The position numbers and the translations under genes were made by a program. Positions 29,378 to 36,580 of a DNA stretch of 64,000 nucleotides are shown in pieces. Under the pieces are notes generated by a model that had not been told where the DNA came from, did no database searches, and worked only from the letters and a program-made list of their open reading frames with translations. Origin of the DNA: Streptomyces sp. V2I9 (GTDB lineage Bacteria; Actinomycetota; Actinomycetes; Streptomycetales; Streptomycetaceae); assembly GCF_030817475.1 (NCBI RefSeq), contig NZ_JAUSZJ010000002.1, forward strand, positions 5,780,626 through 5,844,625, given 5' to 3'. Each line of letters begins with the position of its first letter. Positions within the stretch are counted from its first letter, which is position 1.

Positions 29378-30940
29378 TCAGTCCAGCGACACCGCGTTGG
29401 GCTCCGGACGCGCGGCGCAGTCCGCCCCCCGCCCCGGTACCTCGCCGGTCAGCAGATACCGGCGCAGATGGTCGTCCACGCACGAATTCCCGGCCCCGCC
29501 GACCCCGTGCGTCCCCGCGCCCCGCTCGGTCACCAGGGACGAACCGGGCAGCCGCCTCCGCAGCTCCAGCGCCCCCTCGTACGGGGTGGCCGCGTCCCGC
29601 TCCGCCGCCAGGATCAGCACCGGCGGCAGCGCGCCCCACCGCGCCCCGACCTCCAGCGGCCGCTGCCGGGGCGCCGGCCAGAACGCGCACGGCAGATTGG
29701 TGAAGGCGTTGTCCCACGCCTCGAACGGCGCGACGCGCGCCAGCTCCGTGTGGTCGCGGTCCCACACCGCGAAGTCCTCCGGCCACGGCGCGTCGTTGCA
29801 CTCGACCGCCGTGTACACCGCCTGCGCGTTCTCGTTGTCCTTGGCCGCCACCGCCCGCGGGGACGCCTGGGCCACCAGCGGCTCCGGGTTGCCCCGGACG
29901 TACTCCGACAGCGCCGTCGCCCGCATCGCCCAGTAGTCGTCGTAGTACCCGGCCGACAGGAACGCCGCGTGCAGCTGCCCCGGCCCGACCTTGCCGCCCG
30001 CCGGTTCCACCGCCAACTCGGCGCGCACCGCGTCGTAGTGCCGGCCCACGGCCTCCGGGGTGGTGCCCAGGTGGTACACGTCGTCGTGTTTCGCCACCCA
30101 GCGCCGGAAGTCCTCCCACCGCCGCTCGAAGGCCATCGACTGGCCCATGTTGGAGCGGTACCAGATCTGCTCCGGGTCCGGATCGGCCACCGAGTCGAAG
30201 ACCATGCGCCGTACGTGGGAGGGGAACAGGGTCGCGTACAGCGCACCGAAGTACGTCCCGTAGGACGCCCCCATGAACGTCAGCCGGCTTTCCCCGAGCG
30301 CGGCCCGCAGGACGTCCAGGTCCCGCGCGTTGTTCAGCGAGGTGTAGTGCCGCAGCGTCTCTCCCGCGCGCTCGGCGCACCCCCGCGCGTAGTCCTGGGC
30401 ACGGGCGACGCGCCGCTCCTTCTCCGCCCGCGTCGGGTGGGTCGGGGCGTCGGTCGGACCCTTCGTGTACGCGGACGGGTCCTGGCAACTCAGCGGCGCG
30501 GACGAGCCGTTCACCCCACGCGGGGCGTAGCCGACCAGGTCGTACGCCTCGGCGATCTCCTTCCACTCCGGCAGTTCCCCGGCCATCGGGAAGGTGATGC
30601 TGGAGGCGCCGGGGCCACCGGGGTTGTAGACGAACGCGCCCTGCCGGTCCTCGGCGGGGCCGGTGGCCGGGGTACGGCTGACGGTCAGTTCGAGCTGCCG
30701 CCCGTCCGGCCGGGCGTAGTCGAGGGGAACCTTCACCGTGCCGCACGTCAGGGAGTCCGGAAGCATCTCCTCCTGCGGGCAGGGGCCGAAGTCGATCCCG
30801 ACGGACGCGGCGCGGGCGGCGGCGATCGCGGTGCCCCGTGCCTCGGCGGGGCCCCGGCCGTCCCGGGCGGCCGCGGGAGCGGTGGCCAGGGCGGACAGGA
30901 CCAGGGAGCCGATCGTCGTGTAGAGCGCAGCTGTTCTCAC
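29378..30940 (-). CDS. Secreted alpha/beta hydrolase with TAP-like C-terminal domain
   Basis: A 520-residue exported hydrolase of the tripeptidyl aminopeptidase/SlpD-E type. GTG 30940 is preceded by GAGAGG eight bases upstream; a signal peptide with ATAPAAARDG as likely cleavage site covers residues 1-26. The oxyanion region is YNPGGPGASS, the nucleophile elbow is FMGASYGTYFG (Ser), LILAAERDAATPY carries the Asp, and GAGTHGVGG the His. The TAP-like domain covers the last 100 residues, with NSCVDDHLRRYLLTGEVP. It probably releases peptides from N-termini outside the cell. It lies 180 bases downstream of the Cys-tail membrane protein gene and on the same strand; a functional link is possible but not shown. 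Confidence 0.87.
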   Translation of the reverse strand: MRTAALYTTIGSLVLSALATAPAAARDGRGPAEARGTAIAAARAASVGIDFGPCPQEEMLPDSLTCGTVKVPLDYARPDGRQLELTVSRTPATGPAEDRQGAFVYNPGGPGASSITFPMAGELPEWKEIAEAYDLVGYAPRGVNGSSAPLSCQDPSAYTKGPTDAPTHPTRAEKERRVARAQDYARGCAERAGETLRHYTSLNNARDLDVLRAALGESRLTFMGASYGTYFGALYATLFPSHVRRMVFDSVADPDPEQIWYRSNMGQSMAFERRWEDFRRWVAKHDDVYHLGTTPEAVGRHYDAVRAELAVEPAGGKVGPGQLHAAFLSAGYYDDYWAMRATALSEYVRGNPEPLVAQASPRAVAAKDNENAQAVYTAVECNDAPWPEDFAVWDRDHTELARVAPFEAWDNAFTNLPCAFWPAPRQRPLEVGARWGALPPVLILAAERDAATPYEGALELRRRLPGSSLVTERGAGTHGVGGAGNSCVDDHLRRYLLTGEVPGRGADCAARPEPNAVSLD

Positions 30941-31120
30941 GCGCGGTGCCTCTCTGCGGATGAGGAGAGGGACGGCGGTGCCTCTCCGCGGATGCGGAGG
31001 AGGATGGTCGGGCGGACGGGAGGCGATGTCCAGCACCGTCCCGGCACGTCTTCGTCCACCACCCTGATGGGCGGCCAATATCCGTACGTAGCTGGTGATT
31101 TCAGACCGCAGGCGGCTGGT

Positions 31121-32170
31121 TCAGCCACCGCCGCCGCAGCTCGACCCGCCCCCGCCCCCGCAGCTGGAACCGCCCGAGCTGCCGCAGCTGGAGCCGCCGC
31201 CCCCGCAGCTCGAACCGCCGCCTCCCCCGCACCCCGAGGAGCACCCGGACCCGCCGCCGCACCCCGACCCGGAGCCGCCCCCGCTGGACCCGCCGCAGCT
31301 CGACCCGCCGGGGCCGGACGCGGCGCACCAGACCGTCGTGGCGGCGACGACGGTGACTCCCGCCGTCGTGGACCCGGAGGTGTACGCGAAGGACCGCCGG
31401 CCCCGGGCGCCCAGCCGTGCCGCCGCGACCAGTTGGGCGTACAGCGCCGGGTCCGGCAGGGCACGCAGCCCCCGCGTGGCGACCAGCTGGGCGGGGGTGG
31501 CCGCCCGGGCGTGGGCGGCCACGAACCCCTGGACGGCGCGGCGACCCGCTCCGGTGATCCGCTTCGCCGACGCCGAGGCGACGACGAGACCGCTGATCCC
31601 GCCGAGGACGATCGCGGGCAGCACTTTCAGGACGAACGGGACCGGCAGGCCCTCGTAGGGGTGGTGGGACGACACGTACTGGGCGAACGTGAGCACGATG
31701 GAGACCGGGAACGCGATCAGGCAGCTCACACCCTGGACCCGCCCCCAGCGCCGTACGGTGCGGCTCGCGGCGGGCGGCACGAGCAGCCCCCGCTGTGCCA
31801 GCCCGTCACCGATCTCCTGCACGGCCGGGTGGCGCATCACCGCTTCCCGCACCAGGTGCAGCGCCCCGCTCGGGGCGGTCGCCAGCTCCTGGAGCACGGC
31901 GCGTTCCACCGGGTCGTTCGCCTGCGGACGCTGGACGGAGATGATGCCGGGACCGCCGATGAGTACCCGGCCGTCCGCGTGCAGGGCGGTGAGGGCGGTG
32001 TCCACGACCCTGGCCGGGCCGCCGTTGAGGAACGCCCCTTCGTAGAGGTCGTGGACGGAGGGGAAGGGGCCGGCCGGCGGGCGGCGGGACCGGGAGGCGA
32101 CCACGGCCGCGATGAGCAGCACGGCCGAGACGAGGGTCGCCAGGTTCAGCAGCAGAGCGAGTGCGTTCAT
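31121..32170 (-). CDS. TIGR04222-type membrane protein with Gly/Ser/Cys tail
   Basis: A 349-residue membrane protein. A hydrophobic N-terminal segment (residues about 3-25) is followed by a soluble region with DLYEGAFLNGGPARVVDTAL and ALHADGRVLIGGPGIISV, the hallmark of this family. Two more helices follow (CLIAFPVSIVLTFAQYVS and VLPAIVLGGISGLVVASA). After VTVVAATTVWCAAS, the last 60-odd residues consist almost only of Gly, Ser and Cys, with eight Cys in short G/S spacers plus one just before. Such a tail looks like a substrate for post-translational modification. The DUF692 enzyme gene lies 13 bases upstream in the same operon, a pairing known for this family. ATG 32170 has GGGAAG upstream. 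The function of the protein is unknown. Confidence 0.85.
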   Translation of the reverse strand: MNALALLLNLATLVSAVLLIAAVVASRSRRPPAGPFPSVHDLYEGAFLNGGPARVVDTALTALHADGRVLIGGPGIISVQRPQANDPVERAVLQELATAPSGALHLVREAVMRHPAVQEIGDGLAQRGLLVPPAASRTVRRWGRVQGVSCLIAFPVSIVLTFAQYVSSHHPYEGLPVPFVLKVLPAIVLGGISGLVVASASAKRITGAGRRAVQGFVAAHARAATPAQLVATRGLRALPDPALYAQLVAAARLGARGRRSFAYTSGSTTAGVTVVAATTVWCAASGPGGSSCGGSSGGGSGSGCGGGSGCSSGCGGGGGSSCGGGGSSCGSSGGSSCGGGGGSSCGGGG

Positions 32171-32183
32171 GGTCGTGACTTCC

Positions 32184-33641
32184 CTACTTCTTCCCTGCGA
32201 GAACGGCACGGGCCGCGCGGACCAGGCGGGTGGCACGGCCCGGCGGCCGGGCGCCCGACCGGTCCTGCCACCAGTACGTCAGTTCGCGCCGCGCCAGGGG
32301 ATCGGCGGGGCCGCCCGTGATGAGCACCCGCTCGGCGAAGTCCAGGGCATCGCGCCGGTATCCGCCGGACATCGGACGGCTCCCGGCGTACGCGAGGAAC
32401 GCGGCGCGGTAGCCGTCGCCGAGGATCTCCGGCAGTTCCGGGGCGACCTTGGCGACGACGTCCGCGCGCTTGGCGGCCAGAGCCCGGCTCTGGACCCGCA
32501 GCCGCGCGGGGGCGAAGCCCTCGGGGGCCGGGGTTCCCGCCACCAGCGCGGAGAGCAGTGCGGTCTGCGCGACGGCGATCCGGTCGCGGGTGGTGGCGGA
32601 GACGTCGGGGCCGCCCGGAACGGGGACTTCGGGAACGGTCGTGTCGGGAACGGTCGTGTCGGAAGCGGTCGCTTCGGGAACGGTCGCTTCGGGAACGCGA
32701 ACGGCGGGCGCCCGGTCCCTTCCCCGCACCGCGGGACGCGGGCCCTCCGGGGACGCCGGGCCCGTCGGGGGAGCCGCTTCCCGCAGGGTCGCGCGGATCG
32801 CCTCCAGTTCGCCCGCCAGCTCCTCGCCCGGCGGGAAGGCGTCGTCCCGCTCCAGCAGGACGCCCGGCGGATCGACCCGCGAGCGCAGTTCGGCCAGCAC
32901 CTCCAGCACCGGAGCGGTCACCGGGTGGGCGTGCGTGTCGTGCCAGACACCGTTCCGCTCTACCCCGCCCGCCACATGGACGTACGCGATGGCCTCCACC
33001 GGCAGCTCGTCCAGCGCCTTCGCCGGGTCCTGGCCGAGGTTGACGTGGTTGGTGTGCAGGTTGGCGACGTCGATCAGCAGCCGCACCCCGGTCCGCTCGA
33101 CCAGCTCCGCCAGGAACCGGCCCTCGGTCAGCTCCTCGTCGGGCCAGGTGATCAGCGCCGCGATGTTCTCCAGGGCGAGCGGTACCGGCAGCGAGTCCTG
33201 CGCGATCCGCACGTTCTCGCACAGCACGTCGAGCGCGTCCCGCGTGCGCGGCACCGGCAGCAGGTGCCCCGCCTCCAGCCTCGGCGACGCGGTCAGCGGC
33301 CCCCCGGCCCGTACGAACGCGATGTGCTCGGTCACCAGCGGCGCCCCCAGCAGTTCGGCGCGCGCCGCGAGAGCGGCGAGGCGGTCGGGGTCGGGCCGGT
33401 CCGCGCCGCCCAGGCCGAGCGCCACTCCGTGCGGTACGACGGTGACGCCGCGCTCCCGGAGCCGTACCAGGGAGTCCGGGAGGTGGCCGCCGCAGAGGTT
33501 CTCCGCGACGGCCTCCACCCAGTCGATCCCGGTCAGCGCTTCGACCTCGTGCGCGATCTCCGGCCGCCAGCCGATGCCGATGCCCAGTTCCATGGTGCCC
33601 CCGCCCCCCTGCTCGCTCACCTCGTGCTGTTCCGGGTTCAT
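32184..33641 (-). CDS. DUF692 multinuclear non-heme iron-dependent oxidative (MNIO) enzyme with C-terminal domain
   Basis: A 485-residue protein. Residues about 18-290 form a TIM-barrel DUF692 domain, related to MbnB and TglH, which modify Cys or other residues in peptides. The metal-ligand motifs are intact: [10 protein letters not shown] (His), VTEHIAFV (His), [11 protein letters not shown] (Glu), [14 protein letters not shown] (Asp/His), YVHVAGGV (His), DTHAHPV (Asp/His) and [11 protein letters not shown] (Glu). A Pro/Thr/Val linker of pentapeptide repeats (about 320-345) leads to a helical C-terminal domain of about 130 residues ending in [13 protein letters not shown] 33593 (Met17, MELGIGIGW) with GGGGG upstream is an alternative start. 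The likely substrate is the Cys-rich tail of the next gene product (inference). Confidence 0.9.
32628..32697 (-). repeat. 15-bp tandem repeats in the DUF692 linker
   Basis: Four to five in-frame 15-bp units (for example TTCGGGAACGGTCGT on the plus strand) encode the pentapeptides VPEAT/VPDTT. Being in-frame, copy-number change would only alter linker length. Confidence 0.8.
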
Positions 33642-33718: not shown

Positions 33719-34468
33719 TCATGGCATCGGCATCATCGTGGGCGGTACGGGGCGCGAGGTGAAGGACCGGTCGCCCGTCGGTGTCACCGGCACCGGTGCC
33801 AGGGGAGCCTGCCCGTCCCGCGGCATCGGCGGGCCCGAGGGACTGACCGTGGATCCGCCGGCCGCCTCGCGCGCCAGGGCATCGAAGTCGACGAGGCCGG
33901 TGGCCTCCAGCATGGTGATGTGGTCCAGCACGGTCTGGTTGGCGTCACTGGCCAGCTGCCGGATCAGCGTGCTACGGGTGGTGTGGCGGACCTGGCCGAT
34001 CAGACCGAAGACCTTGCCGTGGGCGGCCCGCAGGAGGTTGGCGAACGTCCGCTCGTAGTCGTCCCCGCTCGCCGCCGTCAGCTCCCGCAGCCAGCCCTGC
34101 TGCTGGGCGGTCGGCTGGTTGGGCAGCTCCACCCCGAGCTTCGCCGCCACGTCCCGCGCCCGCCGGTCCAGGTCCGTGTGGCCGACGACGAGGTGGTCCC
34201 CGGCGGCCTTCGTCGCCTCGCTGGGGGCCCGTTCGATCGCCTGCTGCCCGGCGGGCAGTTCCCACAGCCCGGCGAGCCGCACCTTGACCAGGAAGTCCCG
34301 GTCGGTCGCGGAGAGCGGCCCCCACCGGGTGGCGACGCTGGAGGCGTTGAGGTTCGCCTCGCCGGTGCCGGAGCGGTCCGCGTACGACCAGACCGGGAAC
34401 GCGATCGCCACCAGGGTGGCGGCCGGCGCCGCGATGATGAGGGCCGTGCCGTTGATGCGTCGCAACAA
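33719..34468 (-). CDS. DUF4142 domain protein
   Basis: A protein of about 249 residues if started at TTG 34468, which has GGGAG five bases upstream (TTG 34465 is nearly equivalent). The longer frame to GTG 34579 lacks a ribosome binding site and adds only Arg/Ala-rich sequence. The N-terminal helix GTALIIAAPAATLVAIAFPVW is a signal or anchor. A helical DUF4142 domain of the ferritin-like type follows: DRDFLVKVRLAGLWEL, GDHLVVGHTDLDRRA, AKLGVELPNQPT, TFANLLRAAHGKVFGL. It ends in a Pro/Ser-rich tail. It lies 78 bases upstream of the DUF692 gene in the same direction, so co-transcription is possible. Function unknown. Confidence 0.82.
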   Translation of the reverse strand: MLRRINGTALIIAAPAATLVAIAFPVWSYADRSGTGEANLNASSVATRWGPLSATDRDFLVKVRLAGLWELPAGQQAIERAPSEATKAAGDHLVVGHTDLDRRARDVAAKLGVELPNQPTAQQQGWLRELTAASGDDYERTFANLLRAAHGKVFGLIGQVRHTTRSTLIRQLASDANQTVLDHITMLEATGLVDFDALAREAAGGSTVSPSGPPMPRDGQAPLAPVPVTPTGDRSFTSRPVPPTMMPMP

Positions 34469-34578
34469 GGTGTCTCCCGCGCCGGGGCGCCGGGGCGCCG
34501 ACCGCCGTGCCGCGCGGGCTGCTTGGCGGTGACGCCGATGGGTCAGTACCGGGAGATACGCGGGAGGACGCGCCGTCA

Positions 34579-34742
34579 CTCAGCGGGTGCAGCCATCCTT
34601 CACGCCCGGACAGCCGCGCCCCCTTCACCCCGGCTCGGCGGGGCAGCCGCCCTTGACGCCCGCGCAGCGGCGATCCGCCCCGTTCGCGTCGGCTCAGCGG
34701 TGCGGCGGTCCCCGCACGTCCGCTCAGCGGCGCAGCGCCGGG
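34579..34742. repeat. Degenerate tandem repeat, 24-31 bp units
   Basis: Six decayed units begin CTCAGCGG or a close variant, at 34579, 34610, 34634, 34663, 34693 and 34723. A typical unit is CTCAGCGG-xGCaGCCG-ccCTTcACGCCCG. The last unit runs into the 3' end of the peptidyl-tRNA hydrolase gene. The array fills the intergenic gap and has no coding content. Confidence 0.65.
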
Positions 34743-35452
34743 TGATCGGCGATCACGGTGCAGGAGCCCGGAGCGATCTCGGTGAATCCCGCGTCCCGCA
34801 CGACCGGCAGCCCGCTCGCCGTCAGCTCCCGCCAGCGCTCCGCTCCGGGGGTGGCCACGGAGAGCGGGAACCCGGCCTCGCGCCACGCCTTGCGCTCGGT
34901 GTCGGACAGCTCCCACCAGGCGAGCTGCGCCCCGTGCCCCACCTGGGCCATCGTCTTTCCGGCCGACATGTCGACCTCGGGGTTCAGCCAGAGCACCGGG
35001 CCCTCCGGGTCGGGGGCGGCCGGCGGCTCGGGGTCCTCCAGCTCGGTGCCCGACACCTGGAGCTTGGCCAGCTCCTTGGGCCAGCCGTCCAGCGGGATCG
35101 GCGGGAAGACCCGTACCTCCGCGCCGTCCTCGCCCGTCACCGTGATGCCGTCGAGCGCCGCCGCCTTGCGCCACTCCGCGCCGCGCGCCCGGCGCACGAC
35201 CTTGCGGATGCGGGCGTCCTGCCAGTCCCGCATCGCCTCCGCCCACGCGCCGTCCCCGAGGGACCGCTCGTCGGAGAGGATCGCCAGCACCGCACGGGCG
35301 GCCGCCCGCAGGGCGTCGGTACGGGCGGGCGGGTCCGTCTTCTCCAGGTGGAGCACCAGCGGCAGGACGAACTGCGGCGCCTGGTCGCGGTCGGCCGCGC
35401 CGCTGCGGAACGGGCTGTCGGGAGCGGGAGTGGGGGTGTCGTCGCTGGTCAC
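34724..35452 (-). CDS. Peptidyl-tRNA hydrolase, PTH2-like
   Basis: A protein of 242 residues from GTG 35452 (GTG 35482 gives 252). The C-terminal half has the PTH2 signature VDMSAGKTMAQVGHGAQLA, matching the family pattern in which Lys, Gln and His line the active site, and ends with APGSCTVIADHPAL. The N-terminal half (QFVLPLVLHLEKTDPPARTD) is specific to the actinobacterial form. It is expected to hydrolyse peptidyl-tRNA released from stalled ribosomes. The 3' end overlaps the last unit of the tandem repeat. It is divergent from the AIM24 gene, with 71 bases between starts. Confidence 0.85.
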   Translation of the reverse strand: MTSDDTPTPAPDSPFRSGAADRDQAPQFVLPLVLHLEKTDPPARTDALRAAARAVLAILSDERSLGDGAWAEAMRDWQDARIRKVVRRARGAEWRKAAALDGITVTGEDGAEVRVFPPIPLDGWPKELAKLQVSGTELEDPEPPAAPDPEGPVLWLNPEVDMSAGKTMAQVGHGAQLAWWELSDTERKAWREAGFPLSVATPGAERWRELTASGLPVVRDAGFTEIAPGSCTVIADHPALRR

Positions 35453-35523
35453 TGTCCCAGTCTGCCAGGCGGGCCAGGTCACCTGCTTGGCGGAACGGTC
35501 CGGTCCGGGTGAGGATGCTCCGC

Positions 35524-36198: not shown

Positions 36199-36253
36199 GC
36201 GTGGGGCACGGGCCGCGGACCGCCGAGGCGAAGCGGCGAGCGGGGGAGTGCGG

Positions 36254-36271
36254 GGCCGCTCCGGAGCGGCC
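36254..36271 (+). terminator. Palindrome downstream of the AIM24 gene
   Basis: GGCCGCTCC followed directly by GGAGCGGCC, 56 bases after the AIM24 stop and before the small zinc-ribbon gene. Confidence 0.5.
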
Positions 36272-36352
36272 GGGTTCGCCCGCACGCGCCGTACCGGTCG
36301 CGTCGCTCGTCCGCCGGAACGCCGCCCGGCGCGGATGCGTAGGCTCGTGAGC

Positions 36353-36580
36353 ATGGACATGGGCAGGGACAGGGGCGGAGGAACGGACGAGGACGGCACG
36401 TACTGCGCGCCTCCGGGGTCAGGCGCACCGGCGGCGCCGGACAAGACCGTCGCAGGTCCTCCGTACGCCGAGTGCGTGCTGTGCCGCGAGCCGACCGAGT
36501 ACCCGGAGTCGGCCAGGGGTGCGACCCTCTGCCCGGTCTGCGCCTGGCATGAGGCGGGCCGCACGGCTTGTTCCGGCTAG
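36353..36580 (+). CDS. Small zinc-ribbon-like protein
   Basis: A 75-residue protein. The first 35 residues are Gly/Asp/Pro-rich and look unstructured. The second half is compact: YAECVLCREPTEYPE followed by LCPVCAWHEAGRTACSG, giving two CxxC pairs 19 residues apart that could bind one zinc, plus a terminal Cys. Typical small Streptomyces proteins have the same CVLCREPTEYPE core, which supports a real gene. The start is either ATG 36353 or GTG 36347 in GTGAGC. Function unknown. The stop falls inside a 30-bp tandem duplication. Confidence 0.6.
   Translation: MDMGRDRGGGTDEDGTYCAPPGSGAPAAPDKTVAGPPYAECVLCREPTEYPESARGATLCPVCAWHEAGRTACSG

Follow-up and report, generated by a model that had tools for sequence, protein, structure and literature searches.

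In a 64,000-nucleotide stretch of the Streptomyces sp. V2I9 genome (contig NZ_JAUSZJ010000002.1, positions 5,780,626 to 5,844,625; hereafter, the window), an MNIO enzyme of the DUF692 family is encoded directly ahead of a TIGR04222 membrane protein that ends in a tail of glycine, serine and cysteine. We favour, with moderate confidence, the view that the two genes form a protein-modification unit, in which the MNIO carries a fused partner and has the Cys tail of the adjacent TIGR04222 protein as its putative substrate. In the mechanism that we envisage, the C-terminal six-helix domain of the enzyme would act as the MNIO partner, and the likely substrate would be the Cys-rich Gly/Ser tail of the neighbouring protein, whose three helices are predicted, from the distribution of charges, to leave the N-terminus outside and the C-terminus, with the tail, on the cytosolic face. 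Since the tail is predicted to be cytosolic, modification in place would be possible, with no prior export step. Bufferins carry thiooxazole-like groups, and the score of the enzyme against the BufB model suggests that similar groups may perhaps arise here by oxidation of the cysteines with iron and O2. The modified tail would stay uncleaved and anchored in the membrane, with several cysteines to bind metal, and might, speculatively, buffer copper on the cytosolic side of that membrane. The parts of the unit are the following.

32184-33641, minus strand: MNIO (DUF692) gene, 485 amino acids
32784-33584, minus strand: catalytic TIM-barrel of the MNIO, residues 20-286 (PF05114, E 7.1e-77)
32598-32783, minus strand: linker, residues 287-348 of the MNIO, mostly of low model confidence
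32193-32597, minus strand: six-helix C-terminal domain, residues 349-483 of the MNIO, probable built-in partner (PME-type-2/DUF2063-like)
31121-32170, minus strand: TIGR04222 membrane protein gene, 349 amino acids, ATG at 32170 and stop at 31121
31454-32134, minus strand: TIGR04222 domain, residues 13-239 (profile match and hydropathy)
31124-31327, minus strand: Gly/Ser/Cys tail, residues 282-349, putative MNIO substrate, predicted cytosolic

The MNIO enzyme and its C-terminal domain

The source genome, of 7.16 Mb, returns a single MNIO match and a single TIGR04222 match in family searches. A first-pass annotation, made from the letters of the window, had described a DUF692 enzyme followed 13 bases downstream by a membrane protein with a Gly/Ser/Cys tail, and the PF05114 and TIGR04222 profiles confirm both genes and the 13-base gap between the MNIO stop and the second gene. 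PF05114 (MbnB_TglH_ChrH) covers residues 20-286 at 258.6 bits, against a cut-off of 25, and Pfam is blank for the rest of the C-terminal part. Ten residues (E47, H71, H106, E158, D191, N194, H222, D235, H237 and E264) are invariant across an alignment of 100 sequences; a few rows of a broader set of 99, with distant MNIOs among them, deviate or are gapped at these positions. We take these His, Glu, Asp and Asn residues to be metal ligands or their neighbours, on the assumption that the iron-binding roles assigned in MbnB and TglH hold here as well, and on that basis the enzyme would possess the metal ligands that had been expected of it.

The model of the full enzyme (predicted local distance difference test, pLDDT, 88.8) consists of the barrel and the six-helix domain at 349-483, with pLDDT falling below 50 at residues 306-334. 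Its best PDB matches are TglH (8hci_B, E 3.3e-18), followed by 8hi7_B, 3bww and MbnB (7dz9/7tcr). Among named MNIO models BufB (NF050167) ranks first, at 176.5 bits, which lies below its equivalog cut-off of 310. The N-terminus shows no visible export signal and the enzyme would, judging by this, work in the cytosol.

For comparison, 394 genomes of the class were searched, with TIGR04222 found in 135 of them (106 over cut-off) and PF05114 in 94. The sample of loci comprises 100 MNIO regions, which hold 101 of the 109 PF05114 places, 60 TIGR04222 regions away from an MNIO, and the 80 loci closest to that of the window, all of them from Streptomyces, including one titled [Kitasatospora] papulosa.

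Sequence comparison identifies the C-terminal domain as a homologue of a protein encoded right after the MNIO in other actinobacteria. Residues 346-485, used as query, retrieve separate as well as fused proteins; of the 68 separate frames, in which some places are represented twice, 53 were found by the single sequence alone, and a fused-only profile matches a standalone-only profile at E 1.5e-43. The domain is fused in all 80 close loci. Among 101 MNIO frames, 44 have the domain fused and another 44 have it in a separate adjacent protein, with the domain starting 5 to 681 bases past the MNIO stop; it was not found in 13. A tree of 99 MNIO barrels requires 7 changes of the fused or separate label, at least 4 of them forced by well-supported branches; fusion or fission has therefore happened repeatedly. 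It is because of this homology to a separate protein encoded directly after the MNIO elsewhere that we regard the domain as probably a fused partner, of the PME-type-2 sort. Partners of that type are encoded directly with an MNIO and lack the DUF2063 signature, and the domain is fused to the MNIO or placed directly after it in 88 of the 101 frames. This homology agrees with the earlier guess of a role for the extra domain in substrate recognition.

DUF2063 itself exceeds its cut-off in 3 of the 394 genomes, each time directly 3' of an MNIO, the place that the separate domain takes elsewhere; a search of the V2I9 genome for it gave no match. It is also the Pfam family most often matched within the domain family: 12 of the 82 members match it, with E 6.6e-4 at best, and the domain of the window has no Pfam match. 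Compared with three DUF2063 proteins, the family profile scores 25.4 (E 0.003), the best of 100 column shuffles scoring 22.2 and the reversed profile 16.8. The domain modelled alone has a pLDDT of 90.5. The top two of 151 chains aligned to it by VIA-align are TglI (8hci_A, Z 6.3 over 119 residues, root mean square deviation 4.4) and MbnC (7dz9_C, Z 6.0 over 81 residues, root mean square deviation 3.3), both of which are MNIO partners. The row that follows has Z 4.7, and all stand below the guide value of Z 8 (13 for helical proteins). The protein NGO1945 (3dee) is absent among the 31 VIA-align rows shown.

Other searches with the domain returned candidates that were set aside. A profile search of the PDB gave a lone match to 3fgy at E 0.042, which looks like chance; NCBIfam gave scattered weak matches to the domain family, one NCBIfam entry being matched by three members and twelve others by a single member apiece; and PHROGs, searched with the domain family, gave no match.

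The membrane protein and its tail

The TIGR04222 profile matches residues 13-239 at 164.7 bits, against a cut-off of 43. From Cys282 to the end, the tail comprises 68 residues with nine cysteines, the first of which belongs to a Trp-Cys. The eight cysteines originally counted are right for the last 58 residues, but that count left out the Trp-Cys at the start. Since 69 of the 80 closest loci carry a TIGR04222 frame with a Cys tail, of differing sequence, the tail is not an artefact of frame; contig ends truncate some of the other 11. Of 98 non-redundant tailed proteins, 48 have an odd number of cysteines and 50 an even number, and there is thus no sign of disulphide pairing. With 349 residues and three predicted helices, the protein of the window is not the short precursor of a classical ribosomally synthesised and post-translationally modified peptide.

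As a separate observation, a Trp-Cys lies within the tail of 58 of the 98 proteins, at the tail start where inspected, and could be a recognition point. Of 45 relatives of the TIGR04222 domain, 11 weakly match DUF2207_C, the Pfam family that recurs most often among such matches (none for the window protein), and a few members have weak matches to helix-turn-helix families. A profile search of solved structures with this domain gave E 0.15 at best.

Orientation in the membrane

Orientation was predicted from hydropathy and charge for the 98 non-redundant tailed proteins. Membrane helices are predicted at residues 6-24, 145-163 and 179-197 of the window protein, and three hydrophobic segments occur in 77 of the 98. 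In these 77, the loop between helices 1 and 2 carries a mean of 7.3 lysines and arginines and the part after helix 3 a mean of 4.8 (up to 40 residues considered), against 0.4 in the loop between helices 2 and 3, of mean length 12. The positive-inside rule, applied with a first threshold, places the C-terminus inside for 84 of the 98 tailed proteins and for 53 of 56 untailed ones; two other thresholds give 76 and 85 of the 98. In none of the 98 does a helix-like stretch (at least 19 residues tested) immediately precede the tail, and the weak helix-turn-helix matches of the loop domain would suit a cytosolic loop. The prediction suggests that the tail faces the cytosol, opposite to the periplasmic side given in print.

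Cysteine tails in relation to MNIO genes

The pairing of DUF692 and TIGR04222 genes, on which the first-pass annotation had staked its proposal, recurs in other genomes, and the Cys tail follows the enzyme. Fetched TIGR04222 frames were scored with a custom profile, and 131 of them, from 106 genomes, reached at least 50 bits. A Cys tail is present on 53 of 76 frames adjoining an MNIO, on 4 of 23 elsewhere in MNIO genomes and on 1 of 32 from MNIO-less genomes (Fisher p 4e-11 for MNIO-adjacent against no-MNIO frames, uncorrected for relatedness). The last of these tails (L282) lies at the start of its contig, and an MNIO may have been cut off there. Four more frames, with three to five Cys each, fall just under the threshold for a tail: three elsewhere in MNIO genomes (L242, L243, L251) and one from a genome without MNIO (L285). 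As for the 23 untailed frames adjoining an MNIO, 18 are Streptomyces copies whose ends assign them to a second paralogue (see Neighbouring genes); among the five left over, three fall short of the tail threshold with 3-4 Cys. Where the partner is a separate protein, 29 of the tailed TIGR04222 frames are upstream of the MNIO and 3 downstream.

Some TIGR04222 copies of MNIO-less genomes (for example L265, L272 and L277) bear Gly-rich, Cys-less tails that end in Asp (GGGD). Because such tails exist in genomes without an MNIO, a Gly-rich tail as such is independent of the enzyme.

The tail is also found on other proteins. At loci with the partner domain and no tailed TIGR04222 protein, Gly/Ser/His/Cys tails occur on nine short single-helix proteins, several of them from related genomes, and on two further scaffolds, in frames 452 and 476 residues long, for which no helix is predicted. 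The tailed proteins of L151 and L171 may be diverged TIGR04222 members. The single-helix proteins carry 4 to 7 Arg/Lys after the helix; for L204 and L209, the count before the helix hinges on the choice of start codon. Pfam, run on three of these scaffolds, gave no match. Counting any scaffold, a Cys tail is present at 62 of 88 MNIO loci with a partner domain versus 1 of 12 without (Fisher p 5e-5, a spurious frame of L203 being excluded). The scaffold types that bear the tail are accordingly TIGR04222 proteins, single-helix proteins and apparently soluble proteins. A wider proposal, which we put forward only tentatively, is that an MNIO with a fused or adjacent partner modifies a portable cytosolic Cys tail, borne by at least three scaffolds and never exported or cleaved, so that the unit would be enzyme plus tail instead of enzyme plus TIGR04222. 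Literature searches, with most subscription papers outside their reach, found no permanent protein tail at the cytosolic face as an MNIO product.

The tails seen beside an MNIO and partner domain on proteins other than TIGR04222 are those of L204, L208, L209, L210, L217, L219, L225, L227, L228, L232 and L234.

Alternative explanations

Several results weigh against the proposed unit and are best considered together with its alternatives. The partner assignment leans on weak fold matches (Z about 6), a Foldseek search with the model of the C-terminal domain returned nothing below E 3, and the profile comparison with DUF2063 gives a probability of just 10%; with Z under the guide values and Foldseek E above 3, the fold alone is not enough for the partner claim. 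Another difficulty comes from a well-supported clade of 17 Streptomyces (support 100/98). Here, 16 of the 17 loci have no Cys tail near the enzyme, and in the remaining one (L203) the contig ends right after it; yet the enzymes are fused and all ten putative active-site residues are kept in 17 of 17. The profile of tailed TIGR04222 proteins was run on 20 Streptomyces genomes (these 17 and three more), with 134 candidates scored in each and 20 match ends read, and it matched in 15 of the 17 clade genomes, where nearly all of the proteins were untailed. Since this clade retains an intact enzyme, the enzyme can persist without a tailed neighbour. Such persistence is what would be expected if the fused MNIO had another substrate and the Cys tail, left unmodified, bound metals or thiols and had only its operon in common with the enzyme, and 34 of 100 sampled MNIO loci have no same-strand TIGR04222 gene within 1.8 kb. 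We nonetheless think this explanation somewhat unlikely, as the Cys tail is nearly confined to genomes with an MNIO and appears on differing scaffolds beside the same type of enzyme. Far less credible still is that the two genes stand together as ordinary Streptomyces gene order with no functional link. Much of the stretch HemQ-TAP-TIGR04222-MNIO-DUF4142-PTH2 does recur in Streptomyces, but the pair is found in other genera as well, mostly in reversed order and with none of the other neighbours in 62 loci.

The side of the membrane is a matter of its own. Antoine et al. place the tail in the periplasm on the strength of predicted topology and AlphaFold2 models of selected proteins, as stated in the available passages of PMC12452194, and in that case the MNIO would act before insertion or export, as it does for bufferins. 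The C-terminus is indeed predicted outside in 14 of the 98 tailed proteins at our first threshold and in 21 at a laxer one, which also speaks against a cytosolic tail. Of those 14, 13 have a fourth predicted helix, possibly false. We regard the published orientation as unlikely in view of the positive charge before helix 2 and after helix 3, the empty count of helix-like stretches before the tail and the helix-turn-helix resemblance of the loop domain described above. Moreover, the arginines of the single-helix scaffolds sit on the tail side of the helix, and a further two scaffolds have no predicted helix.

One protein of the 17-member clade deserves separate mention. A diverged TIGR04222-like protein of genome G073 (L325:1390-2271), far from the MNIO, ends in a four-Cys Gly-rich tail; the MNIO of this genome lacks a tailed neighbour, and the protein is a candidate unlinked substrate. 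A search with this protein retrieved itself and one untailed relative in G101, with no tailed relative in the other 16 clade genomes.

Relation to published systems

The idea that the tail is an MNIO substrate is not new, having been published for TIGR04222 and MNIO. According to the passages available of Antoine et al. 2025 (PMC12452194), more than 3,500 TIGR04222 proteins were gathered, mostly actinobacterial and many genetically tied to an MNIO; Cys-tailed subsets were already proposed as MNIO substrates, and many of the clusters seem to have no partner gene. The window shares with these clusters the enzyme family, the membrane protein family, the Gly/Ser/Cys tail and a PTH2-like gene nearby, and differs from them in having a fused partner-like domain, where many seem partnerless, and a tail predicted to be cytosolic instead of periplasmic. 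The PTH2-like gene fits the arrangement 'adjamnio-II - MNIO - TIGR04222' (peptidyl-tRNA hydrolase) of Table 2 in that paper, with the DUF4142 gene standing in between here. Literature searches for TIGR04222 with MNIO, largely limited to work outside subscription, found PMC12452194 as the sole treatment. Its available passages mention an MNIO-nitroreductase fusion; no MNIO-partner fusion is mentioned in those of PMC12452194, PMC13174530 or PMC12710340, and nothing on tails of other scaffolds or on a second TIGR04222 paralogue was met in those of PMC12452194. Compared with these passages, the probable built-in partner, the portable tail, its predicted cytosolic side and the clade that keeps the enzyme but lacks the neighbouring tail are new.

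Among better-known systems, BufB, with its DUF2063 partner, and bufferin resemble the window in that BufB is the best-scoring named MNIO model, the substrate is rich in cysteines and the partner is encoded next to the MNIO. They differ in that the score of the window enzyme is below the cut-off, no DUF2063 match exists in its genome, and a bufferin is a short Sec-exported peptide, whereas the putative substrate here is a 349-residue membrane protein. TglH-TglI and MbnB-MbnC share the catalytic barrel with the window enzyme, and TglI and MbnC are the best matches of its C-terminal domain; the matches are weak, however, the partner is separate there and fused here, and the substrates are other ones. 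Finally, MovX is an MNIO with an extra domain of its own that may replace a partner; in the available passages of PMC12452194 this domain is a winged helix-turn-helix, whereas that of the window enzyme is a six-helix domain with standalone relatives.

Neighbouring genes

The genes flanking the pair are the following.

33719-34579, minus strand: DUF4142 protein, upstream neighbour (PF13628, E 2.9e-18), link not supported
34724-35482, minus strand: PTH2-like protein (PF01981, E 5.8e-9)
29378-31078, minus strand: TAP-like alpha/beta hydrolase, downstream neighbour (PF08386, E 2.9e-27), link not supported

Pfam agrees with the identities first given to the DUF4142 and TAP-like neighbours. The accessory role suggested for them found no support. 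In a survey of about 5 kb on either side of the MNIO by single-sequence searches, from which distant relatives may escape, the 38 Streptomyces loci gave DUF4142 in 18, PTH2 in 31, TAP-like in 25, HemQ in 29 and AIM24 in 9, and the 62 loci of other genera gave no homologue of any of the five. As accessories, these genes, found near the MNIO in Streptomyces loci only, were set aside, for they show nothing beyond conserved gene order.

Many Streptomyces, both with the tail and in the 17-member clade, have a second, untailed TIGR04222 paralogue downstream of the enzyme or of the tailed gene (L019, L032, L187, L196 and others). It bears a C-x-x-x-C at the end of helix 1, mostly C-x-R-L-C, in 63 of the 72 untailed frames from fused-enzyme loci, and may have another role or be another substrate. 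The V2I9 genome, with its one TIGR04222 match, is without it.

Within the syntenic stretch, at 36248-36580 on the plus strand of the window, lies a small conserved CxxC-pair protein (ECVLCREPTEYPES...LCPVC) that is zinc-ribbon-like, with relatives upstream of the MNIO in L183, L187, L196 and L199. A plasmid search for near-identical DNA gave two partial matches among 72,556 records.

Implications

If the proposed unit is real, it would explain how the MNIOs linked to TIGR04222 function although no partner is apparent, a question left by the authors of PMC12452194, and the side of the membrane in the published reading would be corrected. An MNIO and its partner on one polypeptide would perhaps be easier to express and test than the two-protein complexes. 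Moreover, a modified tail that is permanently anchored and never cleaved would take MNIO chemistry beyond peptides and into the resident membrane proteins of Streptomyces.

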